A stretch of DNA of 64,000 bases, from assembly GCF_003574735.1 (NCBI RefSeq), contig NZ_QORW01000001.1, forward strand, positions 248,001 to 312,000. The letters are read 5' to 3'. The notes beneath the pieces are model-generated. The model was not told where the DNA came from and made no database searches. It saw only the letters and a list, made by a program, of their open reading frames with translations. Shown piece after piece: positions 19,778 to 38,095 of this stretch (positions are counted from its first letter, which is position 1; each line of letters opens with the position of its first letter). The translations under genes and the position numbers were made by a program. The DNA is from Dongia deserti (GTDB lineage Bacteria > Pseudomonadota > Alphaproteobacteria > Dongiales > Dongiaceae).

Positions 19778-19787
19778 GGAGGATGCG

Positions 19788-23020: not shown

Positions 23021-23023
23021 GCG

Positions 23024-23752
23024 ATGGCGAGTCTGACCAACCTCGATCCCGCCACGTTGAAGCGCCGCAGCTTCATCTATCGCAAGCTTGCGGCCGCCGG
23101 CGCGGAGTTCGCCGAGGTGAATGGCGGCGCCGTTGCCATGCGCTATCCCGCGCGCGCGGAGAACGAAATGGCCGTTGCACGACGCATGGGGCTGGCCGAT
23201 CTTTCCGTCCTGTCCCATGGCGGCTTCAAGGGCCGCGGCACGGTCGAATGGCTGACGAGGCAGGGACTTACCATCGGCGCGGACAGCAACAAGGCTTATG
23301 TCCAGGCCGATGGCGAGCTGGCGGCGCGCCTCGCCCCGACCGAGATCTTCCTGCTGGATGCGCTGCAGGGTACCGGGCGGCTGATCAACCAGCTGAACGC
23401 GGCCTGGCAATGGGCGCCATCCGCGCCGCGGCCGCAGCAAGGCTATCCGACGCCGCGCCAGGATAGCCATGCCTGGTTCATGGTGACGGGCGAGAAGTCG
23501 GCCGAGATGTTTGCCAAGATCTGCGGCGTCGACCTGCGTCCGCAACACTGCCCCGTTGGCACCATTGCGCAGACCTCGGTCGCCAAGATGAGCAGCAGCA
23601 TCATCCGCGCCGATCTTGGCTCCACGCTCGCCTATCATCTGTTGGCGGATATCGCCTCAGCCGAATATCTGTGGACCTGCGTCGAGGATGCGATCGCCGA
23701 GTATGACGGCGGCATCGTTGGATTGGCTGCCTTGCGGAGCCTGCAGGCATGA
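23024..23752 (+). CDS. soxG/mgdD: Sarcosine-oxidase gamma-like subunit; probable N-methylglutamate dehydrogenase subunit D
   Basis: 242 residues of the SoxG family, which resemble a truncated GCV_T fold and help build the folate site. Visible landmarks: GLADLSVLSHGGFKGRGTVEWL, IFLLDALQGTGRLINQL and PVGTIAQTSVAKMSSSIIRAD. Three nucleotides separate it from the alpha stop. Its own stop overlaps the GlxA-type regulator start by 4 nt (ATGA), so the regulator is co-expressed with the oxidase. Typical SoxG proteins are 170-210 residues, so this one is slightly long. Confidence 0.85.
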   Translation: MASLTNLDPATLKRRSFIYRKLAAAGAEFAEVNGGAVAMRYPARAENEMAVARRMGLADLSVLSHGGFKGRGTVEWLTRQGLTIGADSNKAYVQADGELAARLAPTEIFLLDALQGTGRLINQLNAAWQWAPSAPRPQQGYPTPRQDSHAWFMVTGEKSAEMFAKICGVDLRPQHCPVGTIAQTSVAKMSSSIIRADLGSTLAYHLLADIASAEYLWTCVEDAIAEYDGGIVGLAALRSLQA

Positions 23753-24810
23753 CCGTCACGGCGCGAGCCAGGTCTCAGAGACCAGGCAACGCGCCGCAGG
23801 TCGCGGATCGCGGCGGTTTGCAGGGAGGCTTGCTGCCCGATTTCCTGAAACCGCGCACCAATGCCAAGTCGCCGTTCCGCGTCGCCGTCATCCTGGTGCC
23901 CGGTTTTGCCCTGATGTCCTTCGCTTCGGTGATCGAGCCGGTCCGCGGCGCCAACCGCCTCAGCGGCGCCACGTTCTATGAATGGGAATTGTTCGCCCCA
24001 GAAGGCGGGATGGTGGAATCCAACAGCGGCATCACCGTCGCCGCTGCCCCGGTCTCGACTCTCGAGCAAAGCCATTTCGATCTCGTCGTCGTGTGCGCCG
24101 CCAGCCATGCGGAGCAGCGCCGCTTCCGCACCGTTGAAGAGGTCCTGCGCCGCCTGTCCCGCCGCAACGTCGCGCTGGCTGCCGTCAGCACCGGCAGCTT
24201 CGTGCTGGCGCGCGCCGGCCTGTTGGATGAGCGACGCTGCACGGTTCATTGGGACTATGCCGACAGTTTTGCCGAAGCGTTCCCTGACATCGCGCTCTGC
24301 AACGACCTGTTCGTGGTGGATGGCAGCATCCTGACCTGCGCGGGCGCCACTGCGGCGCTCGACATGATGCTGCAGCTGATCGGCGCGCATCAGGGGCAGG
24401 ATCTGGCGCGACAGATCTCGGGGCAGTTCCTCCATGGCGGCATCCGCGCCGCGGCCGACGACCAGCGCCGCATGCTGCTGGGCATGGGTGTCACCAACTC
24501 CGTTGTGCAGAAGGCGGTCTCGCTCATGGAGGCCGCGATCGAGGAGCCGGTGCCGCTGACCGAACTGACCCAGCGTACCGGCGTATCGCAGCGCCAGCTC
24601 GAGCGGCTGTGCAAGCGTTATCTCGGGGCCACGCCCGCGCAATACTATGTGCAGCTCAGGTTGGAGCGCGCACGCCGCATGCTCCGGCAGACCGACATGT
24701 CCGTCGCGGAGGTTGCGATTGCCTGCGGCTTCGTCTCGCTGTCACATTTCGCCAAGGTTTACAGGCGTCACTATGGTTTATCGCCGCGCGAGGACCGCAA
24801 GGCGACATAA
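23749..24810 (+). CDS. glxA: GlxA-family AraC-type regulator (DJ-1/PfpI sensor domain plus AraC HTH)
   Basis: 353 residues: an N-terminal DJ-1/PfpI-like domain (about 42-210, VAVILVPGFALMSFASVIEPVRGANR; LAAVSTGSFVLARAGLLD) and a C-terminal double HTH of the AraC type (about 255-345, LTELTQRTGVSQRQLERLCKRYL and MSVAEVAIACGFVSLSHFAKVYR). The nucleophile-elbow cysteine of DJ-1 is replaced in VSTGSF, so it senses rather than catalyses. GbdR and related regulators of betaine/dimethylglycine/sarcosine catabolism belong to this family. Translational overlap with soxG argues that it controls this operon and perhaps glxBCD downstream. Confidence 0.9.
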   Translation: MTVTARARSQRPGNAPQVADRGGLQGGLLPDFLKPRTNAKSPFRVAVILVPGFALMSFASVIEPVRGANRLSGATFYEWELFAPEGGMVESNSGITVAAAPVSTLEQSHFDLVVVCAASHAEQRRFRTVEEVLRRLSRRNVALAAVSTGSFVLARAGLLDERRCTVHWDYADSFAEAFPDIALCNDLFVVDGSILTCAGATAALDMMLQLIGAHQGQDLARQISGQFLHGGIRAAADDQRRMLLGMGVTNSVVQKAVSLMEAAIEEPVPLTELTQRTGVSQRQLERLCKRYLGATPAQYYVQLRLERARRMLRQTDMSVAEVAIACGFVSLSHFAKVYRRHYGLSPREDRKAT

Positions 24811-24876: not shown

Positions 24877-24996
24877 TGGCCTACTCCCCCAATCGGCGCG
24901 CTATCATCGCTGACGGGGACTCCGCAAGGCGACAACCGTCGATCTGCCGGCCAAGCAAGTACGTCGTGCAGGACAGTATGAATTTTGGTGGGAACG

Positions 24997-26454
24997 ATGC
25001 CTCGGATTCTGGTTTCGAACATCGATAATGAAAGCATGATGGCGGACGAGCGCGCGCTCACGCCGGATTTCTGCCGTGCGAGCGCCATCACCGCCAGACG
25101 CATGGCATGGTTTGCCGAAGCCGGCGACATCGTCGTGCTGCCGCGCGATCTGTCGCCGCAGATGAAAGTCTATATCGCACGCACCATGGGCTATGAGCCC
25201 GGTTCCGTCACCTATCTGACGCCGGACTGGGGCAATGGACATCCCCGCCCGATCCGCGCGCACGAGCTGCTGCATACAGGGCTTGCGGAACGGATGGTTC
25301 GGATGATCGGCGACCCCGGCAACTGGAGCGTCTATCCCTATTGCTATGAGCGCTCGACGCAGCAATTCGCCGAACGTCTCGGCCTGGACGGCGAACGCGA
25401 CGTGCGCCCGTTTGTGAAGCAGGGCGGTGCGGAATTGCTGAACGACAAGCGCGTGTTCCGCAGCGTTGCCGCCGGTCGGGGCGTTTCGATCGCGGAGGGC
25501 GTGGTCTGCGCGACCCAATGGCAACTCGAGGAATCCATCGGCGCGCTGATCGACAAGACCGGTGCGGTCATCATCAAGCAGGACCGCCACAGCGGCGGAT
25601 TCGGCAATCTGATCGTCAGCCGCGCGGAAGCCACCGGCGCGCTGGGCGCGCCCGAAGTGCTGGTGGCAAAGGATGAATCGCAGATCCGCGACCAGTCGCG
25701 CATCGCCTGGGCGCGCCTTGCCTACACGGATCGCGCGCCGCTGATCGTGGAAGTCTATTATCCGGTATCAGCCTGCGTCACGGCGGAGTTCAAAGTGGAT
25801 GCGGCGGACAACGCCGTCACCTTCCTTAATTGCGGCGAAGTCCGGCAGGCGCCGATCCTGAGTGGCCTCATCATGCCGTCCGCCGTTCCACCCTATCAGC
25901 TGGCGTCGTTCGTTTCTGGTGCGACGGAGCTGGCGCGGCTGTGCTGCGATCTTGGCTATGAGGGGCTGGTGAATATCGACGGTATCGTCACCGCCGATGG
26001 CAATGTCATTGTCAACGAGTTCAACGGCCGCATCGGCGGCTGCTCCCACATCCATCATATCCTTGAGGCCGTCGCCGGGCCGCGTTATGGCGACACGCTG
26101 GTGGTCGTCTCCCACAGCCGCACGGTCGACATTTCCATCGACCAGGCCTTCGGCGTCCTCAACGAGCGCAAGCTCGCTTTCGATCGGAGCCAGGGACGCG
26201 GTATCATCGTGACGGGCGAGGATGCATCTGGCTCGGGTCACCTGGAATATCTCTCCATCGCGCCATCGCGCGAGGATGCGATGCGGCTGGAGGCGGAGTT
26301 CGAAGGCCTGCTAGGCTTCGATATGCCTTCGCAAACCGAGGCCGGCATTGGGCATCTGGCCAAGATCCTGGCCCACCTGCCGCAGATCCGGCGCAAGGAG
26401 GTGGAGCAGGCCCTCCAGGATGGGCAGCGCCACGGCATTGCGCACCAGCCTTGA
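24997..26454 (+). CDS. preATP-grasp / PGM1-like ATP-grasp ligase
   Basis: 485 residues. The N-terminal part (MPRILVSNIDNESMMADERALTP) resembles the preATP-grasp domain. The central ATP-grasp fold shows a nucleotide-binding Lys in AVIIKQDRHSGGFGNLIV and the metal/phosphate-binding end GLVNIDGIVTADGNVIVNEF followed by NGRIGG. A C-terminal helical part follows. The arrangement matches the PGM1 group, whose founder joins amino acids in pheganomycin synthesis by acyl-phosphate chemistry. So a carboxylate-amine (or thiol) ligase is expected; the substrates are unknown. Lying between soxBDAG-glxA and glxBCD, it may act on glutamate-family or methylated amino acids. I chose the ATG at 24997 with GGTGGGA just upstream; GTG and TTG starts exist 3-4 codons earlier. 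Confidence 0.72.
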   Translation: MPRILVSNIDNESMMADERALTPDFCRASAITARRMAWFAEAGDIVVLPRDLSPQMKVYIARTMGYEPGSVTYLTPDWGNGHPRPIRAHELLHTGLAERMVRMIGDPGNWSVYPYCYERSTQQFAERLGLDGERDVRPFVKQGGAELLNDKRVFRSVAAGRGVSIAEGVVCATQWQLEESIGALIDKTGAVIIKQDRHSGGFGNLIVSRAEATGALGAPEVLVAKDESQIRDQSRIAWARLAYTDRAPLIVEVYYPVSACVTAEFKVDAADNAVTFLNCGEVRQAPILSGLIMPSAVPPYQLASFVSGATELARLCCDLGYEGLVNIDGIVTADGNVIVNEFNGRIGGCSHIHHILEAVAGPRYGDTLVVVSHSRTVDISIDQAFGVLNERKLAFDRSQGRGIIVTGEDASGSGHLEYLSIAPSREDAMRLEAEFEGLLGFDMPSQTEAGIGHLAKILAHLPQIRRKEVEQALQDGQRHGIAHQP

Positions 26455-28047: not shown

Positions 28048-28947
28048 ATGTGCGGTATCGTCGGATTGTTCGTGAAGAATCCCGCCCTGCAATCGAAGCT
28101 CGGCGCGCACCTTGAAACCATGCTGATCGGCATGAGTGAGCGCGGTCCGGACAGTGCCGGCATCGCCGTCTATCACAGCCCTGTTGCCCAAGGGCGGAGC
28201 AAGCTGACCCTGTTCAATGCCGACGACGCCTATCCCTGGCGCAAGCTCGCAGGCGACCTCGGCGCGGGGCTGAGTGTCGAAACGGACGTCAGCCAGAAGG
28301 GCAATCACGCGCTGCTGACCGCGGAGGCCAGCGAAAGCAAAGTCATCGAGTGGCTGCATGCCAACCGCCCCGATGTGCGGATCATGGGCTACGGCAAGCT
28401 GATGGAGGTCTATAAAGACATGGGCCTGCCGGGCGAGGTCGCCAAGAAATACGGCCTCCAGAAGATGTCCGGCACGCACGCCATTGGCCATACGCGCATG
28501 GCGACCGAGAGCGCCGTCACCACGGAACATTCGCACCCCTTCACGCCGGCGCCGGACATGTGCCTCGTGCACAACGGCTCGCTCAGCAATCACAACAACC
28601 TGCGCAAATGGCTGCGCAAGCAGGGGCAAACGTTCGACACTGACAACGATTCGGAGGTGGCCGCGCGCTATTTCGCGTACCGCCTGTCTGAAGGCGCCAG
28701 CCTCAACGAAGCACTGGAGGCGGGCCTGACGGACCTTGACGGATTTTTCACCTTCACCATGGGCACGAAGGACGGCTTCGCGGTGGTGCGCGACGGCATC
28801 GCCTGCAAGCCGGCCGTGCTGGCAGAGAATGACGACTGGGTGGCCATGGCATCGGAGTTCCGCTCCCTCGCCTACCTTCCCAACATCGAGAAAGCGAAGA
28901 TCTGGGAACCGGCGCCGGCGACCGTGTACACCTGGAGCCTGCACTGA
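28048..28947 (+). CDS. glxB/mgsA: Glutamine amidotransferase class II subunit GlxB / N-methylglutamate synthase subunit A
   Basis: 299 residues; the mature protein starts at the nucleophile Cys2 (MCGIVGLFVKN), as in Ntn-type glutaminase domains. Further family marks: MSERGPDSAGIAVY, GTHAIGHTRMATES, HSHPFTPAPDMCLVHNGSLSNH and SDSEV-like NDSEVAARYFA. It is a stand-alone glutaminase domain corresponding to the N-terminal part of glutamate synthase GltB. In the N-methylglutamate pathway, MgsABC uses gamma-glutamylmethylamide or glutamate plus methylamine to make N-methylglutamate. GGAGGAAGG before the ATG at 28048 decides the start. It is followed 1 nt later by glxC. Confidence 0.9.
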   Translation: MCGIVGLFVKNPALQSKLGAHLETMLIGMSERGPDSAGIAVYHSPVAQGRSKLTLFNADDAYPWRKLAGDLGAGLSVETDVSQKGNHALLTAEASESKVIEWLHANRPDVRIMGYGKLMEVYKDMGLPGEVAKKYGLQKMSGTHAIGHTRMATESAVTTEHSHPFTPAPDMCLVHNGSLSNHNNLRKWLRKQGQTFDTDNDSEVAARYFAYRLSEGASLNEALEAGLTDLDGFFTFTMGTKDGFAVVRDGIACKPAVLAENDDWVAMASEFRSLAYLPNIEKAKIWEPAPATVYTWSLH

Positions 28948-28948
28948 G

Positions 28949-29632
28949 ATGAACGTCATCGACTTGTCCAGGACCCCGCTGCGCGAGGTCAATAGCCGCC
29001 TCCAGAAGTTGCCCAACGATACCAACGAACGGCTCTGGAAGCTGATCAACGTCCACGGCGAGCACGCCTGCGCCGTCGGCCTGACGAAGCCCATCGAGGT
29101 CCAGATCGACGGTCATATCGGCTACTACTGCGGCGGCATGAACCAGGAAGCCACCATCGTCGTCAACGGCCAGTGCGGCGTGGGCCTGGCCGAGAACATC
29201 ATGTCCGGAGAAGTGCGGGTGAAGGGCAACGCCAGCGCCGCCGCCGGCGCCACCGGCCAAGGCGGCCTCATCGTCATCGAGGGCGATGCGGGCACGCGCT
29301 GCGGCATTTCCATGAAGGGCGTCGACATCGTGGTCGGCGGCAGCGTCGGGGCGATGAGCGCCTTCATGGCGCAGGCAGGCTCGCTCGTGGTGTGCGGCGA
29401 TGCCGGCGCAAATCTGGGCGACTCGCTCTACGAGGCGCGCATCTATGTGCAGGGCAAGGTCGAAAGCCTGGGCGCCGATTGCGTCGAGAAGAAGATGACG
29501 CCGCACCACCTCGCGAAGTTGGAACGCCTGCTGAAACGCGCCGGAATCAACGGCGATCCCAGCAAGTTCAAGCGCTTCGGCTCCGCTCGCAAGCTCTACA
29601 ACTTCCACGTCGACAATGTCGACGCGTACTGA
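28949..29632 (+). CDS. glxC/mgsB: Glutamate synthase GXGXG-domain subunit GlxC / N-methylglutamate synthase subunit B
   Basis: 227 residues making the right-handed beta-helix (GXGXG) seen at the C-terminus of GltB. Repeating G-x-x-G turns are visible: GHIGYYCGGMNQEATIVVNG, CGVGLAENIMSG, GGLIVIEGDAGTRCG and GGSVGAMSAFM. It has no catalytic residue of its own and acts as a structural channel or scaffold between the glutaminase and FMN subunits. One nucleotide separates it from glxB and 12 from glxD. Confidence 0.9.
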   Translation: MNVIDLSRTPLREVNSRLQKLPNDTNERLWKLINVHGEHACAVGLTKPIEVQIDGHIGYYCGGMNQEATIVVNGQCGVGLAENIMSGEVRVKGNASAAAGATGQGGLIVIEGDAGTRCGISMKGVDIVVGGSVGAMSAFMAQAGSLVVCGDAGANLGDSLYEARIYVQGKVESLGADCVEKKMTPHHLAKLERLLKRAGINGDPSKFKRFGSARKLYNFHVDNVDAY

Positions 29633-29644
29633 GGAACAACCCTC

Positions 29645-30973
29645 ATGAGCTCCACGCCCTTCTACACGCCGCCGCGCTGGTCGGCGACGTTCGACCCGCA
29701 CTCGGTTGCCGAGATCCATCGCGCCGCCCAGACCGGCATTTATGACATCCGCGGCGCCGGCGCCAAGCGCAAGGTGCCGCATTTCGACGATCTGCTGTTC
29801 CTCGGCGCATCGATCTCGCGCTATCCGCTGGAAGGCTATCGGGAGAAGTGCGGCACCGACATCGTGCTGGGCACCCGCTTTGCCAAGAAGCCCATCCACC
29901 TCAAGATCCCCGTCACCATCGCCGGCATGAGCTTCGGCGCGCTGTCCGGCAACGCCAAGGAAGCGCTCGGTCGCGGCGCCACGCAGATGGGCACCAGCAC
30001 AACCACCGGCGACGGCGGCATGACGCCGGAAGAACGCATCTCCTCCAAGATCCTGGTCTATCAGCTGCTGCCCTCGCGCTACGGCATGAATCCGGACGAT
30101 CTGCGCAAGGCCGACGCGATCGAAGTGGTCGTGGGCCAGGGCGCGAAGCCCGGCGGTGGTGGCATGCTGCTGGGCCAGAAGATCACCGAGCGCGTGGCCA
30201 AGATGCGCACGCTGCCGGTCGGCATCGACCAGCGCTCCGCTTGCCGCCATCCGGATTGGACCGGACCCGACGACCTCACGATCAAGATCCAGGAGCTGCG
30301 CGAGATCACCGATTGGGAAAAGCCGATCTATGTAAAGGTCGGCGCGACGCGGCCCTATTTTGACACCGCCCTGGCCGTGAAGTCGGGTGCCGATGTGGTC
30401 GTGCTGGACGGCATGCAGGGTGGGACGGCGGCAACGCAGGACGTGTTCATCGAGCATGTCGGCCTGCCGATCCTCGCCGCGATTCGCCCGGCGGTGCAGG
30501 CGCTGCAGGACCTCGACATGCACCGCAAGGTGCAACTGATCGTCTCCGGCGGCATCCGCAACGGGGCGGACGTGGCGAAGGCACTGGCGCTGGGTGCCGA
30601 TGCGGTCGCAATCGGCACGGCCGCGCTGATCGCCCTCGGCGACAACGACCCACATTGGGAAGAGGAATACAAGAAGCTCGGCACCACTGCCGGCTGCTAT
30701 GACGATTGGCACGAGGGCCGCGACCCCGCCGGCATCACCACCCAGGATCCGGAGCTTTCCAAGCGGCTCGATCCCGTGAAGGCGGGCAAACGCCTCGCCA
30801 ATTATCTGGCGGTCCTGACCATGGAGACCCAGATCATCGCGCGCGCCTGCGGCAAGAGCCATGTCCACAATCTGGAGCCGGACGACCTGGTCGCGTTGAC
30901 CGTCGAGGCGGCTGCCATGGCGGGCGTGCCGCTCGCCGGAACCAACTGGATACCGGGCAAGAACGGGATGTAA
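29645..30973 (+). CDS. glxD/mgsC: FMN-dependent glutamate-synthase-like subunit GlxD / N-methylglutamate synthase subunit C
   Basis: 442-residue TIM-barrel protein of the Glu_synthase family. Family elements: PVTIAGMSFGALSGNAKEAL, TTTGDGGM, GQGAKPGGGGMLLG, VKVGATRPYFDTALAVKSGADVVVLDG and IVSGGIRNGADVAKALALGADAVAIGTAAL (phosphate-binding loops for FMN). Cysteines at RSACRHPDW and TTAGCYDDW lie near where GltB has its 3Fe-4S ligands, but the full cluster motif is not clear. It is the redox-active centre of the three-subunit enzyme, with GlxB and GlxC. Confidence 0.91.
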   Translation: MSSTPFYTPPRWSATFDPHSVAEIHRAAQTGIYDIRGAGAKRKVPHFDDLLFLGASISRYPLEGYREKCGTDIVLGTRFAKKPIHLKIPVTIAGMSFGALSGNAKEALGRGATQMGTSTTTGDGGMTPEERISSKILVYQLLPSRYGMNPDDLRKADAIEVVVGQGAKPGGGGMLLGQKITERVAKMRTLPVGIDQRSACRHPDWTGPDDLTIKIQELREITDWEKPIYVKVGATRPYFDTALAVKSGADVVVLDGMQGGTAATQDVFIEHVGLPILAAIRPAVQALQDLDMHRKVQLIVSGGIRNGADVAKALALGADAVAIGTAALIALGDNDPHWEEEYKKLGTTAGCYDDWHEGRDPAGITTQDPELSKRLDPVKAGKRLANYLAVLTMETQIIARACGKSHVHNLEPDDLVALTVEAAAMAGVPLAGTNWIPGKNGM

Positions 30974-31018
30974 TCTCGCGACAGCCCTGATCGATAACGC
31001 GTTGAGGGGAGGTTTTCC

Positions 31019-32326
31019 GTGACCGCCGATCTTGCCGAGATCGCCAAAGAGCGACAGATCAAATATTTTCTGATCAGCTACACTGACCTGTTCGGCGTGC
31101 TGCGTGCCAAGCTGGCGCCGGCCGCCGCCATTGCGGATATGCAGCGCGATGGGGCCGGCTTTGCCGGCTTCGCGACCTGGCTGGACATGACGCCGGCGCA
31201 TCCGGACCTGTTTGCCAAACCGGACCCGGCCAGCCTCATCCAGCTGCCCTGGAAGCCGGAAGTGGGCTGGCTGGCCAGCGACCTGTGGATGGACGGCAAG
31301 GAAGTCGCCGACAGCCCGCGCGCGCAGCTGAAACGGATGATCGCCCTGGCCGACAAGAAGGGCCAGCGCATGAAGAGCGGCGTGGAATGCGAGTTCTTCC
31401 TGACGACGCCCGACGGCAGGAGCTTGGCCGATGGCGCCGACACGCAAGAGAAGCCCTGCTACGACCAGCAGGCGCTGATGCGCCGCTACGACATCATCAC
31501 CGAGATCTGCGACTCGATGCTGGCGCTGGGCTGGAAGCCTTATCAGAACGACCACGAGGACGCGAACGGCCAGTTCGAGATGAACTGGCACTACGACGAT
31601 TGCCTGTTGACCGCGGACCGCCACGTCTTCTTCAAGTACATGGCCAAGACGATTGCCGAAAAGCATGGGCTGCGTGCGACCTTCATGCCCAAGCCGTTCA
31701 TTAACCTGACCGGCAGTGGCTGCCATGCCCATGTCTCGGTCTGGGACAAAAGCGGCAAGACCAATCTGTTCGCCGATGCCAAGGGCGAGCTGGGCCTCTC
31801 GAAGCTGGCCTACCAGTTTCTGGGCGGCATCATGCACAACGCCGAGGCGCTGTGCTCCATCTTCAATCCGACGGTCAATTCCTACAAGCGCATCAACGCC
31901 CCACGCACTGTCTCGGGCGCGACCTGGGCGCCCAATACAATCACCTATTCGGGAAACAACCGCTCCCACATGGTGCGCATTCCAGATGCCGGGCGGTTCG
32001 AGCTGCGCCTCGCGGACGGAGCGACCAACCCGTATCTGCTGCAGGCCGGCATTTTGGCAGCGGGACTCGACGGCATCGACAACGACCGCGACCCTGGCGA
32101 GCGCCTCGACATCAACATGTATACCGAGGGCCACAAGGTGAAGAACGGCCGCAAACTGCCGCTCAACCTGCTCGATGCGATCCGCGTCACGGAGAAAAGC
32201 GAATCGCTGCGCGCCTATTTCGGCGGCAGCTTTGTCGAGTCGTACTGCTCGATGAAGATGACAGAATGGAATTCCTACACGCGTCACCTGACCGAGTGGG
32301 AGCGACAGAACAGCCTGGACTGCTGA
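31019..32326 (+). CDS. gmaS: Glutamine-synthetase-like ligase, GlnT / gamma-glutamylmethylamide synthetase type
   Basis: 435 residues of the glutamine synthetase superfamily. Metal and substrate motifs: SGVECEFFLTT, NDHEDANGQFEMNW, FINLTGSGCHAHVSVW, NPTVNSYKR, NTITYSGNNRSHMVRIP and RFELRLADGATNPYLLQAG. Length and motifs fit the GlnT/GmaS clade rather than GlnA (about 470 aa). With glxBCD and soxBDAG nearby, it most likely joins glutamate and methylamine to gamma-glutamylmethylamide using ATP. A GlnT-type glutamine synthetase is the alternative. The start is GTG, supported by GAGGGGAGG 6 nt upstream. Confidence 0.88.
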   Translation: MTADLAEIAKERQIKYFLISYTDLFGVLRAKLAPAAAIADMQRDGAGFAGFATWLDMTPAHPDLFAKPDPASLIQLPWKPEVGWLASDLWMDGKEVADSPRAQLKRMIALADKKGQRMKSGVECEFFLTTPDGRSLADGADTQEKPCYDQQALMRRYDIITEICDSMLALGWKPYQNDHEDANGQFEMNWHYDDCLLTADRHVFFKYMAKTIAEKHGLRATFMPKPFINLTGSGCHAHVSVWDKSGKTNLFADAKGELGLSKLAYQFLGGIMHNAEALCSIFNPTVNSYKRINAPRTVSGATWAPNTITYSGNNRSHMVRIPDAGRFELRLADGATNPYLLQAGILAAGLDGIDNDRDPGERLDINMYTEGHKVKNGRKLPLNLLDAIRVTEKSESLRAYFGGSFVESYCSMKMTEWNSYTRHLTEWERQNSLDC

Positions 32327-32606: not shown

Positions 32607-34007
32607 ATGGATACCGATATCGGCGCACTGACGATCATCTTCACCGAGTTCTACTACTGGATCACCGTCGTTCTTATGTTCCTGATCCATATCGGCTTCT
32701 GCATGTACGAAGTCGGCGCCTCGCGGCGGAAGAACCACATGCACACGCTGATGAAGAACACGATGCTGATCCCGCTGGTCACCATCACGTTCTTCTTCTT
32801 CGGCTGGTGGATCTATTTCGCGTTCCCGAACGGGCCCGGGATCCTTGGCGGCCTGATTTCGTCGCCCTGGGCGGAGCCTTGGAATGAACTGATGGGCGCC
32901 CACATGGGCGGCGCGCCAGCAGGAACCGACATCACCGCTGAAGATACGGCATTCTGGGCCCGCATCAACGGCGTGTTCTGGGCTGCGTTCCTGCTGTTCT
33001 CCTGGACCGCGGCATCGATCGTCTCCGGCGCCGTCATCGAGCGCATCCGGTCAGGCTCCTTCTGGCTGATCGCCGTCGCGGTCGGCTCCTTCACTTGGAT
33101 CATTGATGCGGCCTGGGGCTGGCACCCGGATGGATGGATGGTCCAGCTGCTGGGATACCACGACGCCTATGCCTCGGGCGTGATCCACGCGATCGCGGGT
33201 GGCGCAGCGTTGGCAGTCCTGATCCACCTTGGTCCACGAATCGGCAAGTTCCGGGCCGACGGGACGCCACGCAATATCGTGCCGCAAAACCCCTGGCTGA
33301 TCACGATCGGATTGTTCCTGATCTATACGGGTTTCTGGGGCTTCTACGTCGCGTGCAACATTCCGATCATCGACGTTCAGGAAGGTGAAGGGGTCTTCTA
33401 TTCGGCCACCAACATCTACCTGACGCCGACTACCTTGTCGGCGATCACGTTCAACTTCCTGATGTCGCTATCCGGCGGTTTGCTGGCCGGCTACATCGTC
33501 TCCCGCGGCGATGCCTTCTGGACCTATTCCTCGGGCCTGTGCGGGATCATTGGCGCATCGGCTGGCAATGATCTCTATCACCCGATCCAGGCCATGCTCA
33601 TTGCCGCCGTCGTGGCGGCGATCTCCTACAAGATGCACTACTGGGTGGAGCGGCGGTTCAAGATCGACGATGCGGTCGGTGCCGTTGCGGTGCACGGCTA
33701 TGGAGGCTTCCTCGGCGTGGTCGTGGCGGGCTTCATGCTTTGGGGCTATCCGGCGTCTCAGAAGTACGACGTGCTGATCACGCCCTGGGGCAACTTCATC
33801 GGCGCGATCATCATGTTCTTCGTCCTGGGTTTCCTGCCCGCTTACATCCTGGCCGGAATCATGAAAGCGATGAATGTGCTGCGCATCCCGCGCGAGATCG
33901 AACTCGTTGGGCTCGATCTTTCGGAATATGCGGCGCGCTACGAGAACGAGGACGACGTCAACCGGGCCGAGCTGGACGAAGCCCGGCGCGCAGGCGTTAT
34001 CCGCTAA
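32607..34007 (+). CDS. Divergent ammonium/methylammonium transporter (Amt family)
   Basis: 466 residues, about 11 hydrophobic helices. The twin-histidine pore pair is conserved: His194 (HDAYASGVIHAIAGG, with Asp186 eight residues before it) and His363 (DDAVGAVAVHGYGGFLG). The extracellular GWFGFN element of typical Amt proteins reads GFWGFYVAC, so the Asn is replaced by Tyr, a notable departure. The C-terminal cytoplasmic tail is long and acidic. Placement right after a GmaS-type gene suggests uptake of methylammonium or ammonium for that enzyme. It stands 280 bp from gmaS behind a terminator and is followed by a small membrane protein 21 bp later. Confidence 0.87.
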   Translation: MDTDIGALTIIFTEFYYWITVVLMFLIHIGFCMYEVGASRRKNHMHTLMKNTMLIPLVTITFFFFGWWIYFAFPNGPGILGGLISSPWAEPWNELMGAHMGGAPAGTDITAEDTAFWARINGVFWAAFLLFSWTAASIVSGAVIERIRSGSFWLIAVAVGSFTWIIDAAWGWHPDGWMVQLLGYHDAYASGVIHAIAGGAALAVLIHLGPRIGKFRADGTPRNIVPQNPWLITIGLFLIYTGFWGFYVACNIPIIDVQEGEGVFYSATNIYLTPTTLSAITFNFLMSLSGGLLAGYIVSRGDAFWTYSSGLCGIIGASAGNDLYHPIQAMLIAAVVAAISYKMHYWVERRFKIDDAVGAVAVHGYGGFLGVVVAGFMLWGYPASQKYDVLITPWGNFIGAIIMFFVLGFLPAYILAGIMKAMNVLRIPREIELVGLDLSEYAARYENEDDVNRAELDEARRAGVIR

Positions 34008-34028: not shown

Positions 34029-34265
34029 ATGTCTACCGGCAATTTCGAAAACTGGCACGGTACGATGACCGATATCGGACCGCTCTATCCTTTCGTGGGC
34101 TCGGAGATGTTCCTGTTCATCGTCGGTCTGGTGTTCTGGATCGGCTGGCACGTGCTGCAGTGGCGGATGGAAGCGTCAAACTACAGCGACGATCTCGAGA
34201 TCCTGAGGAGTCCAGACAAGATGGACCGGGCTCTCAAAGGAGAGCACGTGCTGCGGACCATGTAG
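34029..34265 (+). CDS. Small single-span membrane protein beside the Amt gene (78 aa)
   Basis: MSTGNFENWHGTMTDIGPLYP precedes one hydrophobic helix (about 23-45, SEMFLFIVGLVFWIGWHVLQW), followed by a charged cytoplasmic tail (SDDLEILRSPDKMDRALKGE). GGAGG lies 8 nt before the ATG at 34029. No family is recognised. It is 21 bp from the Amt stop and ends just before a strong terminator, so it forms an operon with Amt and could be an accessory subunit. Confidence 0.75.
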   Translation: MSTGNFENWHGTMTDIGPLYPFVGSEMFLFIVGLVFWIGWHVLQWRMEASNYSDDLEILRSPDKMDRALKGEHVLRTM

Positions 34266-34290
34266 CAGACGCGCCAGCGAACATCGCTTC

Positions 34291-34321
34291 AAGCGCCGGC
34301 AAAAAATGCCGGCGCTTTCTT
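34291..34321 (+). terminator. Rho-independent terminator after the Amt operon
   Basis: Perfect 11-bp stem (AAGCGCCGGCA at 34291-34301 and its complement at 34307-34317) with a 5-nt A loop, running into TTTCTTTTT. It is 26 bp past the small gene stop. A textbook terminator. Confidence 0.92.
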
Positions 34322-34553
34322 TTTGCCGCGGTTCCGCCACTGTGTCCGATCGACGCACCTTAGCCTTTTGAAATAGTCGACGCGCGACCGTTCGACGGAA
34401 AAGCGGCCGTGAAATGCCGATTTCTGGTCATTCAAAAAAATTTCCTGCTAGTGGATTCTCCAATCTCGTGCAAACATACGAATTGTCGCAGAGAACGGCT
34501 CGATCAAGACGCCGCAAAGGCGCCGGGTCGGTTGGATCAGGGGAGTCAAAAGT

Positions 34554-34850
34554 ATGGCGGAAGAAGTTCTTGCCGGCCAATCAATGCAATCCCGTGTTGA
34601 CCGGATGTTCGGCCGTGACCGGTTGTGGGCATGGGGATTCGTCATCGTGCTCTGGGTCGTTCTTGCCTTCGTCTATTTTGCCGTTTCCGGTTTCATCGTC
34701 GACGGCACGGCGAAGATCGTCGCGGCCATCGCCGCGGTGCTGGTGGGTATTTTCAATACCGCCTCGATCGGGGCGATGATCAGCCACTATTCGCACGACA
34801 AGAACGCGATCTACGAACTCGACATCAAGCATCTGGACGCGCGGCACTGA
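34554..34850 (+). CDS. Small two-span membrane protein (98 aa)
   Basis: Two hydrophobic helices (about 26-46, WAWGFVIVLWVVLAFVYFAV, and 53-74, AKIVAAIAAVLVGIFNTASIG) with a polar N-terminus and a charged, His-containing tail (HYSHDKNAIYELDIKHLDARH). No family recognised. It starts a tightly spaced four-gene run ending in an APC permease, all co-directional. Gap to the next start 39 bp. Confidence 0.72.
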   Translation: MAEEVLAGQSMQSRVDRMFGRDRLWAWGFVIVLWVVLAFVYFAVSGFIVDGTAKIVAAIAAVLVGIFNTASIGAMISHYSHDKNAIYELDIKHLDARH

Positions 34851-34889
34851 CCGTTGGGTCGGTTCGAGGCGTTCATCAGGGAGGATGGC

Positions 34890-35372
34890 ATGGCACAAGT
34901 GTACCAGCCGCCGAAGCAGTCCCGCTTGGGACAGCTGATCGATGCGGCTGTAATTCTTATTCTGGTATTCCTGGCTCTTTTCATTCCGCTGGAGATGGAG
35001 TTGGCCGGCGCCGAGAAGGGCGACTGGCTGCCGGGGAATTATGCGGTCGAGCAAACGGCCGATGGCGGCGTTGTGCTCAAGAACGACAGCGGGCTGATCA
35101 AGACAATCGCCGCCGATGGAACAGTCACCTTCGAGAATCTGACCTGGGAAGCCCTGCAGCAGAACGAAGTCATGCAGGCCCAGTGGAGCAAGCTCGGCTA
35201 CGACCTCCAGGCTGCAGCGGAAGCGATCACCAAGCGCTACGACTACTCGTTCGACTGGCTGTGGCTGATCCTGACGCTCGCCGCCATCGGTGGATATTTC
35301 CTGTTCCTGGTGAGGCAATCGGACAAGGAATACCGCGAAGTCATCGCCGAGAAGTTCGGCAACCGCTCCTGA
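34890..35372 (+). CDS. Membrane protein with an external domain of about 90 residues between two helices (160 aa)
   Basis: TM1 at about 20-38 (LIDAAVILILVFLALFIPL), then a predicted extracytoplasmic part (AGAEKGDWLPGNYAVEQTADGGVVLKN cut short here) of about 90 residues with beta-rich character, then TM2 at about 122-142 (WLWLILTLAAIGGYFLFLV) and a short charged tail. I chose the ATG at 34890, with AGGGAGG upstream; an open TTG start lies 12 codons earlier. No family recognised. It may be an assembly or substrate-capturing partner of the downstream permease. Confidence 0.72.
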   Translation: MAQVYQPPKQSRLGQLIDAAVILILVFLALFIPLEMELAGAEKGDWLPGNYAVEQTADGGVVLKNDSGLIKTIAADGTVTFENLTWEALQQNEVMQAQWSKLGYDLQAAAEAITKRYDYSFDWLWLILTLAAIGGYFLFLVRQSDKEYREVIAEKFGNRS

Positions 35373-35393
35373 TTTGGGTCGAAGGAGATAAGC

Positions 35394-35585
35394 ATGCTCG
35401 ATTTTCTGCAGTTCCGCGGCCCGTGGGATTGGCTGCAGGCCGCGGCCTGGCTCGTGTCCATCGCGTTGCTCGGCTGGATGGTGTTAGACGCTATCCGGAC
35501 CGGACGCAAATTCAATGAAGATGTCCTCGCCAGCTCTCAAGAAGGCGTGGACGAACTGCTCCAGCATCACGATCGGGTACGGTGA
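35394..35585 (+). CDS. Small single-span membrane protein (63 aa)
   Basis: MLDFLQFRGPWDWLQAAAW begins the chain. One helix (about 14-33, LQAAAWLVSIALLGWMVLDA) and a charged tail (RTGRKFNEDVLASS) follow. GAAGGAG precedes the ATG. Its stop overlaps the GTG start of the APC permease (GTGA), so translation is coupled. Family not recognised. Confidence 0.72.
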   Translation: MLDFLQFRGPWDWLQAAAWLVSIALLGWMVLDAIRTGRKFNEDVLASSQEGVDELLQHHDRVR

Positions 35586-36997
35586 GCGCAATGGTCGACA
35601 CAACTGTTGGCGGCGCACAGCCGACCAAGATCAATCTCGTCAAGGTCCTGGGTCCGGTCCATGTCTGGGCTCTGGGCGTTGGTATCGTCCTGGTCGGCGA
35701 GTTCATGGGCTGGAACTTCTCCGTGGAGAAGGGCGGCGCTTTGGGCTCGCTGATCGCGTGCTGGATCATCGGCCTGCTCTACACCTGCGTCGCGATGCTG
35801 GATTCGGAGGTTACATCGACCGTGGCCGCTGCCGGCGGACAGTACACGCAGGCGAAGCACACGACGGGGCCACTGATGGCCTTCAATGTCGGCCTCTATC
35901 TTGTCCTGGCCTATACCATGCTGGAAGCGGCCGACATCTTCGTGTTCGGCGACTTGGTGCGGATTGCGGCCGAAAATCTGGGCGCGGAACAGGGCACGGT
36001 CGACACAAGGCCGTTCGTGCTGCTGGCCGTCTCCGTCCTTGCCTTCCTCAATTACCGCGGGGTGTTCATGACCCTGACGGTGAACTTCCTGATCACCGCC
36101 GTCGCCTTCATCTCGATCATCGTGCTCGTCATCGCTTATCAGTTCGGGATCGGCACCAGCGAGACATTGCAGCATGGCGGCCTCGGCATGGGCGAATTGC
36201 CCTACGGGTGGATGGGCGTCCTGGCGGCTTTCCAGTTCGCGATCTGGTACTACCTCGGCATTGAAGGCACGTGCCAGGCTGCGGAAGAGGTCCGCTCCTG
36301 CGGCCGCTCTTTGCCGCTTGGTACTATGACGGGCATGATCACGCTCCTGATCGCCGCCGCGCTCACTTGGTATGTATGCTCCGGCACGCTGCCCTGGGAG
36401 TATCTCGGCACGGCCCTGGCTCCGCTTTATGACGCCTCGCTGATGTCCGGCAGCACGTTCCTCATCGTGCTCCTGTGGGTCGGCACCGTCTTCTCGGCTC
36501 TTGCCTCGGCAAACGGCTGCATCAATGATGCGGCACGGGCCTGGTTCTCCATGGGCCGGGACCGCTACCTGCCGGAATATTTCGCCGCAGTTCATCCGGT
36601 CTATCGGACACCGTTCCGCGCCATCATCTTCCTGATCCCGATCGCGGCGGCGTTCGGGTTCCTGGGATTGCTGGCGCCGGTCGTCACCTTTTCGATCCTC
36701 TCCGGCCTGCTCGGCTACACGTTCATGCCGATCAACATGTTCCGCTTCCGGGCGAAATGGCCGCTGGGGTCGATCAAGCGCGGTTACGTCCATCCGTTCC
36801 ACCCCTTGCCGGCGATCACGTTGCTGGTGCTCTGCATCGCGACGTACGTTGCGGTCTATCTGGGTTTCGGAACGCAGCTCCTGGCCATGATGGTGTTTTA
36901 CGTCGTGGCCTCGATCTGGTTTGTCGTCTTCCGCTACAAATATGTGCGGCGCGGCGACCAGTTCACGATGGCGTGGCCGCGACCGAAGGGTTATTGA
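35582..36997 (+). CDS. APC-superfamily amine/amino-acid permease (ethanolamine-permease-like)
   Basis: 471 residues with 12 predicted helices. The APC signature near TM1 is GVGIVLVGEFMGWNFSVEKGG, and TM3-TM6 carry AAAGGQYTQAK, LNYRGV and FAIWYYLGIEGTCQAAEEV, the last resembling the GxE element of APC carriers. It resembles the ethanolamine permease (EAT) branch. A small-amine substrate such as methylamine or ethanolamine fits the gmaS/sox context but is inferred. The GTG at 35582 overlaps the previous stop; the ATG at 35591 with GGTGAG upstream is an alternative. Last gene before a long hairpin. Confidence 0.87.
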   Translation: MSAMVDTTVGGAQPTKINLVKVLGPVHVWALGVGIVLVGEFMGWNFSVEKGGALGSLIACWIIGLLYTCVAMLDSEVTSTVAAAGGQYTQAKHTTGPLMAFNVGLYLVLAYTMLEAADIFVFGDLVRIAAENLGAEQGTVDTRPFVLLAVSVLAFLNYRGVFMTLTVNFLITAVAFISIIVLVIAYQFGIGTSETLQHGGLGMGELPYGWMGVLAAFQFAIWYYLGIEGTCQAAEEVRSCGRSLPLGTMTGMITLLIAAALTWYVCSGTLPWEYLGTALAPLYDASLMSGSTFLIVLLWVGTVFSALASANGCINDAARAWFSMGRDRYLPEYFAAVHPVYRTPFRAIIFLIPIAAAFGFLGLLAPVVTFSILSGLLGYTFMPINMFRFRAKWPLGSIKRGYVHPFHPLPAITLLVLCIATYVAVYLGFGTQLLAMMVFYVVASIWFVVFRYKYVRRGDQFTMAWPRPKGY

Positions 36998-37015
36998 TCC
37001 TTCCTTGAGCGAGCC

Positions 37016-37049
37016 AGCACGGCCGGCAGGGTTCCCTGCCGGCCGTGCT
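37016..37049 (+). terminator. Long hairpin after the APC permease gene
   Basis: Perfect 15-bp stem (37016-37030 and 37035-37049) with loop GTTC, very GC-rich, 19 bp past the permease stop. No T-run follows (CATTGGGG), so it is either a strong non-canonical terminator or an mRNA-end stabiliser. Confidence 0.65.
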
Positions 37050-37097
37050 CATTGGGGTTAGGCCAAATAAGCAGACGAGCAATCAACAACGGGTCGA

Positions 37098-37781
37098 ATG
37101 TCGGGTAGCACCGTCTGGTTCATAATCCTCGCGCTAGCCGCCGCCGGAATCGCTGTGCTGGCGATCATGTATCGCCGCAATCGCTTGGCGGTCCGAAGCC
37201 GCCGAGCCGGGCTCTTCACGCCTGCCTATGATCTCTTCTCCGCATATCGCGTGACGCAGCACGGCATCGACTATCCCGTGCTGACCGGCGAGTATCGTGG
37301 ACGAAGCTTTCATATCGATGCGATCGTCGACACGCTGACCTTCAGGAAGCTTCCCGTGCTGTGGCTACGGGTGTCGCTGCTGGCTTCCCTGCCCGGCACA
37401 GCGACGCTCGACATCCTGGTGCGCTCGCAGAACGCCGAGTTCTATTCGCCGGCCAATGACCTGCCACACGCGTTGGCGCCGTTGCCTGGGTGGCCCTCCG
37501 ATGCGCTGGTACGAACCGACGACCCGCAGCGCGCGCCCGATCTGTCGGTTGTCGATCGGCATATGTCCGTGTTCGCCCGCCCCGCGACCAAGGAATTGCT
37601 GGTCACGGCCAAGGGCACGCGCGTGGTCCACATGCTGGATCAGGCCCGACGCGCGGAGTATCTGGTGCTGCGCCAGGCCGAGTTCGAGCACGCGTCTGTG
37701 GATCGGGAGACCCTGAGGGATCTGATGGACAGGACCATCGCACTTTATGAGAACTTGGCGGCCAGCAGGAAGCCCGCATGA
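37098..37781 (+). CDS. Membrane-anchored protein of unknown function (227 aa)
   Basis: One N-terminal helix (about 6-24, VWFIILALAAAGIAVLAIM) followed by a basic stretch (YRRNRLAVRSRRAG) and a soluble domain of about 190 residues with mixed alpha/beta character (GIDYPVLTGEYRGRSFHIDA; SVVDRHMSVFARPATKELLV). The pattern recalls proteins that present a cytoplasmic or periplasmic beta-rich domain on one anchor, but I do not recognise a family. The stop overlaps the next gene (ATGA), so the two are co-translated. Confidence 0.7.
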   Translation: MSGSTVWFIILALAAAGIAVLAIMYRRNRLAVRSRRAGLFTPAYDLFSAYRVTQHGIDYPVLTGEYRGRSFHIDAIVDTLTFRKLPVLWLRVSLLASLPGTATLDILVRSQNAEFYSPANDLPHALAPLPGWPSDALVRTDDPQRAPDLSVVDRHMSVFARPATKELLVTAKGTRVVHMLDQARRAEYLVLRQAEFEHASVDRETLRDLMDRTIALYENLAASRKPA

Positions 37782-38095
37782 CCAAAGCGCCAATGCCAGG
37801 ACAGAAGCCGATCAAGCCGCCGTTCCATCCGCTGCTGGTGCTGGCGGTCGCGATCGTCCTGCCCGGGATTGGGCAGATCATGAATAATCAGCCCGTGCGC
37901 GGCCTGCTGTTTGCGTTCACGACCGTGGCACTCGGCTATGTCACGTCCAAGTACGCTGCGCCCGACGTTTCGATCTTCGGGCGCTATGCCGGTGGATTCT
38001 TCATCCACGCCATCGCCCTCATGGACGCCTATCGATGGGCGAAGGTGCGCTGGGAGATCTTTCATTATGGCTCGGATGGCAATCGTCCCAGCTAG
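37778..38095 (+). CDS. Small membrane protein of unknown function (105 aa)
   Basis: Hydrophobic segments at about 18-38 (HPLLVLAVAIVLPGIGQIM) and 43-60 (GLLFAFTTVALGYVT), then a possible third (GGFFIHAIALMDAYRW). The G-x-G-Q-x-x-x-x-x-x-x-R-G-L-L pattern near residue 30 resembles TM2-like or DUF5683-type membrane proteins, a weak similarity only. It overlaps the upstream gene by 4 nt and shares a CTAG with the convergent rfbD stop. Confidence 0.68.
   Translation: MTKAPMPGQKPIKPPFHPLLVLAVAIVLPGIGQIMNNQPVRGLLFAFTTVALGYVTSKYAAPDVSIFGRYAGGFFIHAIALMDAYRWAKVRWEIFHYGSDGNRPS

Follow-up and report, generated by a model that had tools for sequence, protein, structure and literature searches.

Within the window, by which we mean the whole 64,000-nucleotide stretch of Dongia deserti DNA analyzed here, two modules lie side by side: module A, formed by amt and s78, and block B, formed by s98, s160, s63, an APC permease gene, p227 and p105 (Table 1). 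We lean, by a slight measure, towards the view that block B is an APC-family importer of small amines, likeliest methylammonium, whose permease depends on five dedicated membrane partners; the physical complex, its substrate, the direction of transport and the role of each subunit are what we infer. An earlier note on this DNA had proposed a multi-component amine-uptake machine. What survives of that proposal is a conserved, pathway-linked APC unit, with Amt no longer a part of it.

Organization and conservation of the two modules

All eight genes lie where the earlier note placed them, on the + strand, with short membrane proteins between Amt and the APC permease. The small genes are under purifying selection. 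With pN/pS values of 0.09-0.61 for all six (against three same-genus genomes) and homologues that recur, in order, among distant taxa, they are more than chance ORFs. On two RefSeq plasmids, each block-B small gene is labelled "hypothetical protein".

Table 1. Features of the window discussed in the text, with their positions in the window.
Feature	Position	Strand	Remarks
Four-gene sarcosine-oxidase-like operon (mgdABCD/soxBDAG)	18521-23752	+	Pathway context; soxB, soxD, soxA families
mgsA	28048-28947	+	Pathway context; named by gene order and family
mgsB	28949-29632	+	Pathway context; named by gene order and family
mgsC	29645-30973	+	Pathway context; named by gene order and family
gmaS-type type III glutamine synthetase	31019-32326	+	Pathway context; named by gene order and family
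amt (module A)	32607-34007	+	Amt channel
s78, 78 aa (module A)	34029-34265	+	One-TM partner of Amt
Intrinsic-terminator-like hairpin	34291-34317	+	Between modules A and B
s98, 98 aa (block B)	34554-34850	+	Two TM helices predicted by hydropathy
s160, 160 aa (block B)	34890-35372	+	TM1, exposed domain, TM2
s63, 63 aa (block B)	35394-35585	+	One TM helix
APC-superfamily permease (block B)	35582-36997	+	471 aa from GTG 35582, or ATG 35591 start
Hairpin between permease gene and p227	37016-37049	+	Perfect 15-bp stem, no T run; from sequence, fold and self-match
p227, 227 aa (block B)	37098-37781	+	N-terminal TM helix and soluble domain
p105, 105 aa (block B)	37778-38095	+	Membrane protein

The four small genes upstream of the permease had been taken as a single run. 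This stands for the 98-, 160- and 63-aa genes but not for s78, which goes with amt and is followed by the terminator-like site before s98. A scan of the stretch returned six such sites, against 5.0 in shuffles, and this site is the only match with an 11-pair stem. The proposed overlap of s63 with the permease gene holds if translation begins at the GTG and disappears if it begins at the in-frame ATG; since alignment conservation starts near that Met, the overlap is uncertain. The 227- and 105-aa genes do lie 3' of the second hairpin, and they are part of the permease's own block. This hairpin recurs between permease and p227 genes in 28 of 31 other loci, only a modest excess over the shuffle mean of 17.1.

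We compared the closest 80 of 541 permease loci, and in these the order s98-s160-s63-APC-p227-p105 is unchanged: 74 are complete and six partial, five of the latter stopping at contig ends. One partial locus (L097) has no detectable p227 and p105. Counted gene by gene in the same 80, s98 is present in 78, s160 in 80, p227 in 78 and p105 in 76. The 98-, 160- and 63-aa genes and the permease gene, grouped together in the earlier note, are therefore neighbours in other genomes too, in a unit larger by the 227- and 105-aa genes. Block B occurs in Methylophaga, Methyloversatilis, Methylotenera, Paraburkholderia, and Roseovarius; the permease is also found in Aminobacter and Sinorhizobium, where the check on the small genes covered a single record per genus.

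The s98 profile matched exactly 14 of 398 genomes sampled across the phylum (seven genera, eight of the 14 genomes belonging to one genus), the same 14 that hold the permease clade (at least 646 bits and at least 64% identity). The next permease homologue outside the clade scores 156 bits, and s98 was not found in 41 genomes holding only distant permease homologues (E up to 1e-20). Because up to 12 first-look candidates per genome were scored for s98 and up to four for the permease, these absences are not absolute. Among the clade loci, s98, s160, and s63 occur in 14/14 and p227 and p105 in 13/14.

Association with the N-methylglutamate pathway

The proposed tie between block B and the GmaS/MgsABC genes is borne out. 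The MgsC-type N-methylglutamate synthase subunit is encoded in 14/14 block-B genomes (at least 72% identity) vs. 44/398 overall, and gmaS or mgsC lies inside the fetched flanks of 58 of the closest 80 block-B loci. The other 22 flanks contain neither, some because contigs end there. In six genomes of the family where block B lies away from the pathway genes, MgdA is found elsewhere at 79-85%. In the window, the soxB, soxD, and soxA family matches of the sarcosine-oxidase-like operon all fall under the curated cut-offs, and the fourth gene has no NCBIfam match.

The reverse does not hold. Block B is absent from 30 of the 44 MgsC genomes in the 398-genome sample, and the pathway can therefore do without it; one genome (G015) has a close MgdA and no s160 match. 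Three of four plasmid loci (L160, L162, L163) lie away from pathway genes, and two are beside homogentisate/tyrosine genes, so that the substrate may vary.

Outlines of N-methylglutamate clusters (mgdABCD-gmaS-mgsABC), as far as the published descriptions available to us go, give the enzymes and at most Amt, without block B. In Methyloversatilis universalis FAM5 grown on methylamine, the pathway genes rose 6-10-fold together with "co-clustered conserved proteins", and amino-acid permeases were among the responding functions, while the MgsABC, MgdABCD, and Gmas rows of the table have poor q-values of 0.65-0.75 (PMC5023235). The accessible portion of that account names neither the small genes of block B nor its permease (PMC5023235).

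The permease and its putative partners

The permease exceeds the Pfam gathering scores of AA_permease_2 (98.2 bits, cut-off 27) and AA_permease (91.6, cut-off 24.6). The nearest curated family in its superfamily is the ethanolamine permease (TIGR00908), whose equivalog cut-off it does not reach (178.6 vs. 381.75 bits); the Methyloversatilis orthologue scores 180.6 bits. Its invariant residues are Glu40 (TM1), Asp118 (TM3), and Glu228 (TM6). Glu40, which lies in a G-E-[FY]-x-G-W segment, is present in 81/81 clade members and in 15/16 of the comparison set; this segment and the TM6 [GA]-I-E-G segment are common to the ethanolamine permeases, so Glu40 and Glu228 are not specific pointers to methylammonium. 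Of the 16 distant relatives retrieved, nine were put to the test, and every one proved to be an ethanolamine permease. The two groups differ in sequence (28-32% identity) and in gene content, as none of the 16 next-nearest relatives carries any of the small genes.

Among PDB sequence matches of the permease are the light chains xCT and b0,+AT of heteromeric amino-acid transporters. These are APC-fold proteins that need a membrane partner, which is one large glycoprotein, whereas block B would offer five small bacterial ones. Another parallel is the ActP-YjcH type, in which a sodium:solute symporter is paired with a short two-TM protein. Block B likewise combines a secondary transporter with a short two-TM protein (s98), in a different superfamily, and no YjcH-type Pfam family is among the s98 matches.

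The earlier note recognized none of the small families. In structure prediction, the p227 model resembles TtfA and a translocon factor, while the s160 model (AF2, pLDDT 89) has no clear PDB match. The external domain of about 90 residues proposed for s160 is seen as 87 residues between the helices of the model, but much of it is absent from many homologues, whose median length is 133.5 aa. Conserved features of the helical proteins include the s98 tail IYxxDI[RK]HLD in the alignment, the s160 C-terminal motif Y-[RKL]-x-V-[IV]-x-E-[KR]-F (76 of the closest 80 loci), and the s63 tail SS[RQT]EG (71 of these 80). p105 bears PGxGQ and G-R-x-A-G-G motifs and scores below the DUF5683 gathering threshold (14.4 vs. 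26.7 bits); a weak DUF5683 likeness appears in 22/41 members of its family (best E 9.4e-5).

p227, modelled by AF2 with a pLDDT of 93, is predicted to have a TtfA-like fold with an N-terminal TM anchor, the helix being indicated by both AF2 and hydropathy. The model aligns with TtfA (PDB 6t84) at Z 11.4 (rmsd 3.5, 152 aligned residues, VIA-align) and with chains of the ribosome-bound translocons 7tm3, 9i78, and 6w6l at Z 9.4-11.2, the matching chain presumably being CCDC47; the next other fold reaches Z 7.0. Foldseek alone gave no match under E 0.14, and a 42-row profile found no PDB chain, TtfA included, at E up to 1. According to the part of the literature consulted, the C terminus of TtfA is cytoplasmic and the protein acts in complex with a transporter (PMC6593404). 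TtfA, the accessory factor of the lipid transporter MmpL3, resembles p227 in its N-terminal anchor and soluble-domain fold and differs in its partner, MmpL3 rather than a LeuT-fold permease, and in being essential in mycobacteria. CCDC47 is alike in fold, yet eukaryotic, ribosome-bound, and general.

Under the importer reading, methylammonium would bind in the LeuT-fold core of the permease near Glu40 and Glu228, with Asp118 as a possible clade-specific addition to the site, and would be carried inward by secondary transport to feed GmaS and the N-methylglutamate pathway. The helices of s98, s160, and s63 (two, two, and one) may pack onto the permease as subunits. p227 could bind its cytoplasmic side and serve in assembly or stabilization, or in handing the amine over to GmaS, and p105 would complete the assembly. 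More tentatively, and with rather less than even confidence, we suggest that block B is a heteromeric bacterial LeuT-fold transporter (a permease in obligate association with three small helical subunits, a TtfA/CCDC47-like cytoplasmic adaptor, and a fifth membrane protein) and a main high-affinity methylammonium importer of Alpha-, Beta-, and Gammaproteobacteria that use this pathway.

Alternative readings and significance

The five small proteins might instead be dedicated biogenesis factors for the permease, outside the working transporter, which we regard as unlikely, though deserving attention. The translocon matches of p227 fit this idea, CCDC47 being described, in the excerpt available, as a component of a translocon for multi-pass membrane proteins (PMC7505659), and the hairpin after the permease gene could set p227 and p105 output apart from that of the permease. 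However, s98, s160, and s63 have the look of simple helical subunits and bear conserved tails, and the nearest relatives, the ethanolamine permeases, have none of the partner genes in the 16 loci compared. A transceptor, with the permease as sensor of the amine and the small proteins as relays to the regulators, is improbable: AraC- and XRE-cupin-type regulators are present in the cluster, and an XRE-cupin homologue in 11 of the closest 80 loci, but they are inconstant neighbours, and the Pfam matches of the small proteins include no signalling domain. That these are ordinary co-linear genes, functionally untied to the permease, we consider scarcely credible; their "hypothetical protein" labels would suit it, but it is opposed by the fixed order in 80 loci and by an occurrence that, among 398 genomes, falls in just the 14 holding the permease clade.

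A rather unlikely reading is that methylammonium enters through Amt and s78 while block B moves another pathway compound or amine (ethanolamine-like, dimethylamine, gamma-glutamylmethylamide, or ammonium export). Amt channels conduct methylammonium. The window's Amt exceeds the PF00909 gathering score (186.7 vs. 23.2 bits) and falls below the TIGR00836 ammonium transporter cut-off (174.3 vs. 343.3); we take Asp186, His194, and His363 to be conserved Amt positions, the two His residues forming the twin-His pore. The same reading gains from the kinship of the permease to ethanolamine permeases, from some block-B loci adjoining dmm-like or homogentisate genes, and from one genome (G266) with the Amt-s78 pair about 2 kb from mgsC. 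Pseudomonas sp. C5pp also has a gmas-mgsABC-amt operon, whose amt product is called an inner membrane methylamine transporter in the section available (PMC8292978).

On the other side, Amt and s78 are a pair separate from block B. The pair is itself conserved: amt adjoins s78 in 19 of 20 loci examined. The s78 family occurs in 27 of 289 genomes of the class, 25 of them outside the family, and in 17 of the 18 of these examined Amt is adjacent. The idea of one machine joining Amt and the APC permease finds no support in this distribution or in the presence of Amt in only eight of the closest 80 block-B loci (flanks up to 10 kb), 72 having none in the fetched flanks. In the loci examined, with their short flanks, the pair is mostly away from pathway genes. 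Amt lies within 7 kb of MgsC in 0/13 block-B genomes (1/14 with the window itself) vs. 7/30 others, a trend only.

The importer reading bears on a step seldom named: for methylamine entry into N-methylglutamate-pathway bacteria, the literature we could draw on offers Amt or nothing. The available text of a Methylophilaceae genome study calls "the mode of methylamine uptake" unclear for pelagic strains without known oxidation pathways (PMC6794327). Block B is a specific, genetically testable candidate for methylamine uptake. If its five partners are subunits, dedicated accessory chains can be a requirement of an APC permease in bacteria too; to our knowledge, such dependence has been known only from the heteromeric transporters of animals. 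The fold of p227 would then connect the accessory factor of MmpL3, the multipass translocon of the ER, and a bacterial amine permease, and, should the heteromeric reading be true, a TtfA/CCDC47-like fold would have a part in assembling transporters of unrelated superfamilies. Five families now labelled as hypothetical proteins would also gain a function in one step.

Two gene units beside the methylamine genes

The earlier note had described an Amt channel and an APC permease accompanied by six small membrane proteins, and we found all eight genes where it had placed them, all on the forward strand. In neighbourhood maps of 15 other genomes, all of the family except G086, these genes split into two units: module A, the Amt gene and a 78-aa gene, and module B (block B), in which genes for proteins of 98, 160, and 63 aa (s98, s160, s63) are followed by the permease gene and by genes for proteins of 227 and 105 aa (p227, p105). 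Module B is intact in the 14 family maps, and the G086 copy is interrupted by its contig. In Dongia mobilis (L025), amt and the 78-aa gene lie downstream of module B, and in the window a terminator-like hairpin stands between the two modules; a sigma-70 promoter scan found 0 promoters against 2.1 expected. Purifying selection acts on the small genes, whose pN/pS in comparison with three same-genus genomes is 0.09-0.61. The two blocks singled out by the note, Amt with the 78-aa gene and the 98/160/63-aa genes with APC, are both kept elsewhere by neighbourhood comparison (19/20 and 80 loci, respectively), and their conservation is much stronger than was evident from the sequence alone.

In this 6.1-Mb genome (window G000:C1:248001-312000), the eight genes are preceded by a sarcosine-oxidase-like operon, an AraC and an XRE-cupin regulator, and mgsABC with a gmaS-type glutamine synthetase; the names mgs, mgd, and gmaS in the window were assigned from family and gene order. 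GbdR, to which the AraC-type regulator comes closest, regulates choline metabolism. Between the two regulators lies a 489-aa reading frame that appears ATP-grasp-like by eye. An NCBIfam search with it gave no match, and among the neighbourhood maps of 15 genomes it is confined to those of L021 and L022, from the same genus as the window.

Features of the window in and upstream of the two modules
Feature	Position	Strand	Remark
Sarcosine-oxidase-like four-gene operon (soxBDAG-like)	18521-23752		upstream of the eight genes
AraC-type regulator	23749-24810		end of soxBDAG-like operon; closest to GbdR at 314 bits, cut-off of 480 not reached
489-aa reading frame	24985-26454		between AraC and XRE regulators
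mgsABC + gmaS-type glutamine synthetase	28048-32326		upstream of the eight genes
Amt gene	32607-34007	+	module A
78-aa gene	34029-34265	+	module A
Terminator-like hairpin	34291-34317		between modules A and B
Block B	34554-38095	+	s98-s160-s63-APC permease-p227-p105
Perfect 15-bp hairpin, no T run	37016-37049		between APC permease gene and p227 gene

Conservation of block B and its permease clade

Scanning a genome collection with the alignment of the APC family yielded at least 541 relatives, of which the best 80 were retained, so that the picture covers the closest relatives. Judged from record titles, these best 80 loci come from Alpha-, Beta-, and Gammaproteobacteria, with one MAG labelled Deltaproteobacteria. 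Many belong to methylotrophs (Methylophaga, Methyloversatilis, Methylotenera, Methylobacillus, Methyloligella, Methyloceanibacter); Paraburkholderia, Roseovarius, and Aurantimonas are also represented, and Rhodospirillum, Rhodospirillaceae, and Dongia records are among the near relatives. A single-sequence search of the class with s160 matched in just 5/289 genomes, and profiles were therefore used subsequently; within the family, s160 was found in 15/17 genomes. Applied to the best 80 loci, profiles built from the window's family detected s63 and s160 in 80/80 each, s98 and p227 in 78/80 each, and p105 in 76/80. Gene order is identical in every one of these loci, 74 of which are complete and six partial: five stop at contig ends, and in the sixth (L097) p227 and p105 were undetected by the profiles. 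The median gaps along the block are, in order, 12, 13.5, 15.5, 102.5, and -4 nt. On plasmids of Aminobacter aminovorans and Pseudohalocynthiibacter, RefSeq annotates the five small genes as "hypothetical protein" and the permease as "amino acid permease"; in the Sinorhizobium meliloti record, the permease is named "APC family permease", and there are entries for three of the five.

Of 398 genomes in the phylum, 14 were positive with the s98 profile; eight of these belong to one genus, so that the 14 stand for 7 of 213 genera and not for 14 independent events. The same 14 genomes hold the clade permease (646-1044 bits, 64-100% identity), the next homologue falling to 156 bits, in searches that scored only the best first-look candidates per genome. 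The genes for s98, s160, and the permease stand next to one another at the 14 loci. No s98 was found in 41 further genomes with only distant permease homologues (E up to 1e-20). Sixteen such homologues were fetched, and all nine that were typed are ethanolamine permeases (555-704 bits). Within about 1.5 kb on either flank, these 16 loci showed no member of the five small families, against s98, s160, and s63 in 14/14 and p227 and p105 in 13/14 of the clade loci.

The permease and its putative small partners

The block-B permease belongs to AA_permease_2 (Pfam), and its solved relatives by sequence include CAT4, CAT1, the transporter 5oqt/6f34, xCT, and b0,+AT. Glu40 in TM1 is present in 81/81 members of the clade and 15/16 of an ethanolamine-permease comparison set, and Glu228 in TM6 in 81/81 and 16/16; Asp118 in TM3, invariant in the clade, is Ile in the comparison set. 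In amino-acid carriers, the break in TM1 is where the substrate carboxylate is held. An acidic residue near this break would suit an amine-only substrate, methylammonium being one candidate among others.

Hydropathy predicts two TM helices in s98 (77/78) and s160 (79/80), and one in s63 (80/80) and p227 (72/78); the prediction for p105 is uncertain (0-3 helices). No window small protein matched a Pfam or NCBIfam family above cut-off. Pfam was also run on four family alignments, with only weak matches, up to E 0.01: DUF4153 (9/41), FA_desaturase (7/41), and twelve families once each for s98; DUF5683 (22/41), DUF7533 (4), and DUF6677 (2) for p105; BCCT (2/41) for s160; and a match in one member for p227. 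With s160, p227, and s98, sequence-profile searches of the PDB gave no hit up to E 1. The s160 model from AF2 (pLDDT 89, pTM 0.63) had no clear match in the PDB by Foldseek (best E 0.17) and none at Z of 5 or more by VIA-align, which leaves room for a relative.

For p227 (AF2 model: pLDDT 93, pTM 0.89), the best Foldseek E against the PDB was 0.14. Alignment of the Foldseek candidates with VIA-align put TtfA first (6t84; Z 11.4, 152 aligned at rmsd 3.5), followed by three translocon chains, which we take to be CCDC47 (Z 11.2, 10.2, and 9.4); the next fold reached 7.0. Since Z below 8 is common without relationship according to the guidance of VIA-align itself, only these four stand out. TtfA, which shares with p227 a likeness of fold and an N-terminal TM helix, is described in the available text as having a cytoplasmic C terminus, forming a complex with MmpL3, and being required for MmpL3 transport (PMC6593404), and CCDC47, as far as the source covers it, is part of a translocon for multi-pass proteins (PMC7505659). 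Given this likeness and these roles, the best reading of p227 makes it a partner of the permease on the cytoplasmic side, acting as a working subunit or helping in assembly; with moderate confidence, we favor a stable complex.

A hairpin also lies between the permease and p227 genes. Among the 31 loci with an APC-p227 gap of 20-400 nt, 28 have a stem of at least 8 bp (47/78 gaps fall outside this range and hence outside the count), and shuffled gaps gave a mean of 17.1 loci with a stem and a maximum of 23 in 20 rounds. The excess over the shuffles is modest and thus argues only weakly for conservation of the hairpin.

Methylamine genes and the substrate of block B

MgsC, a subunit of N-methylglutamate synthase, was detected at 72% identity or more in 44/398 genomes, including all 14 with block B; another 30 MgsC genomes are without the block, and the relation is therefore one-sided. 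Around MgsC, mgsABC and gmaS homologues were found in 43/43 genomes (the window's own excluded), and an mgdC homologue in 12/13 with block B vs. 17/30 without. Eight of the 15 neighbourhood maps have no mgs or gmaS gene (L023 and L035 (contig <9 kb), and L029-L034); six family genomes with a stand-alone block B carry MgdA (79-85%) elsewhere. Genome G003 has neither s160 nor a close MgdA (best 50%), and G015 has MgdA at 75% identity and no s160 match. The window's genome also encodes a second MgsC-like protein (54% identity; G000:C14:99494-100774).

Across the 80 loci, gmaS or mgsC lies within the fetched flank in 58. Five of the other 22 have at least one gene resembling an apparent dimethylamine-monooxygenase set, with all four genes only in L101. 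On pSymB of S. meliloti Ak57, block B sits between a dimethylamine-monooxygenase-like set and glnT-mgs-sox genes (the dmm and mgs names are our own assignment). Pfam searches with 20 neighbouring proteins of free-standing copies (L043, L051, L054, L064, L081) showed no shared theme. In L043 (13282-14973) and L051 (8536-10173), the block is followed by another AA_permease_2 gene. The MAG at L092, titled Candidatus Methylopumilus universalis, contains both mgd-gmaS-mgs genes and block B. Pelagic Methylophilaceae are said, in the accessible text of PMC6794327, to encode neither methylamine pathway, and misbinning is a possible explanation of the conflict.

Homogentisate/tyrosine degradation genes neighbor block B on two plasmids from hosts of two different families, A. 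aminovorans pAA01 (L160) and a Pseudohalocynthiibacter plasmid (L162), which is evidence against a single fixed substrate; at 35% identity or more, no homogentisate genes were found beside the block in the best 80 loci. These two neighbourhoods possibly reflect another amine substrate, or coincidence.

Module A has a distribution of its own. The 78-aa profile matched in 27/289 genomes of the class. An adjacent Amt (65-100% identity) was seen in 19 of the 20 loci fetched (L164-L183), the exception being L170, a locus cut short. Within short flanks, these pairs mostly lie away from any methylamine gene, one in G266 being about 2 kb from mgsC. The 78-aa protein appears to be a conserved partner, with a single helix, for one subfamily of Amt, an unnamed accessory family distinct from block B. 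A second Amt (46%) is encoded in the window's genome. An Amt gene lies less than 7 kb from MgsC in 7/30 genomes without block B vs. 0/13 with it (1/14 counting the window), a trend with too few cases to claim the two as alternative routes.

In Methyloversatilis universalis FAM5 grown on methylamine, the available text reports pathway genes and "co-clustered conserved proteins" up 6-10-fold, and amino-acid permeases among the responding functions, with poor q-values for the pathway rows (0.65-0.75); block-B genes are not named in the part covered (PMC5023235). In the accessible part of a review, the protein encoded by amt in the gmas-mgsABC-amt operon of Pseudomonas sp. C5pp is termed the methylamine transporter of the inner membrane (PMC8292978). 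The accessible text of the literature on methylamine permeases or transport with the N-methylglutamate pathway, or on accessory subunits of bacterial APC permeases, was found to contain no description of block B. Block B is apparently an APC amine permease with five membrane partners, obligate by appearance, and its likeliest task is the import of methylammonium.
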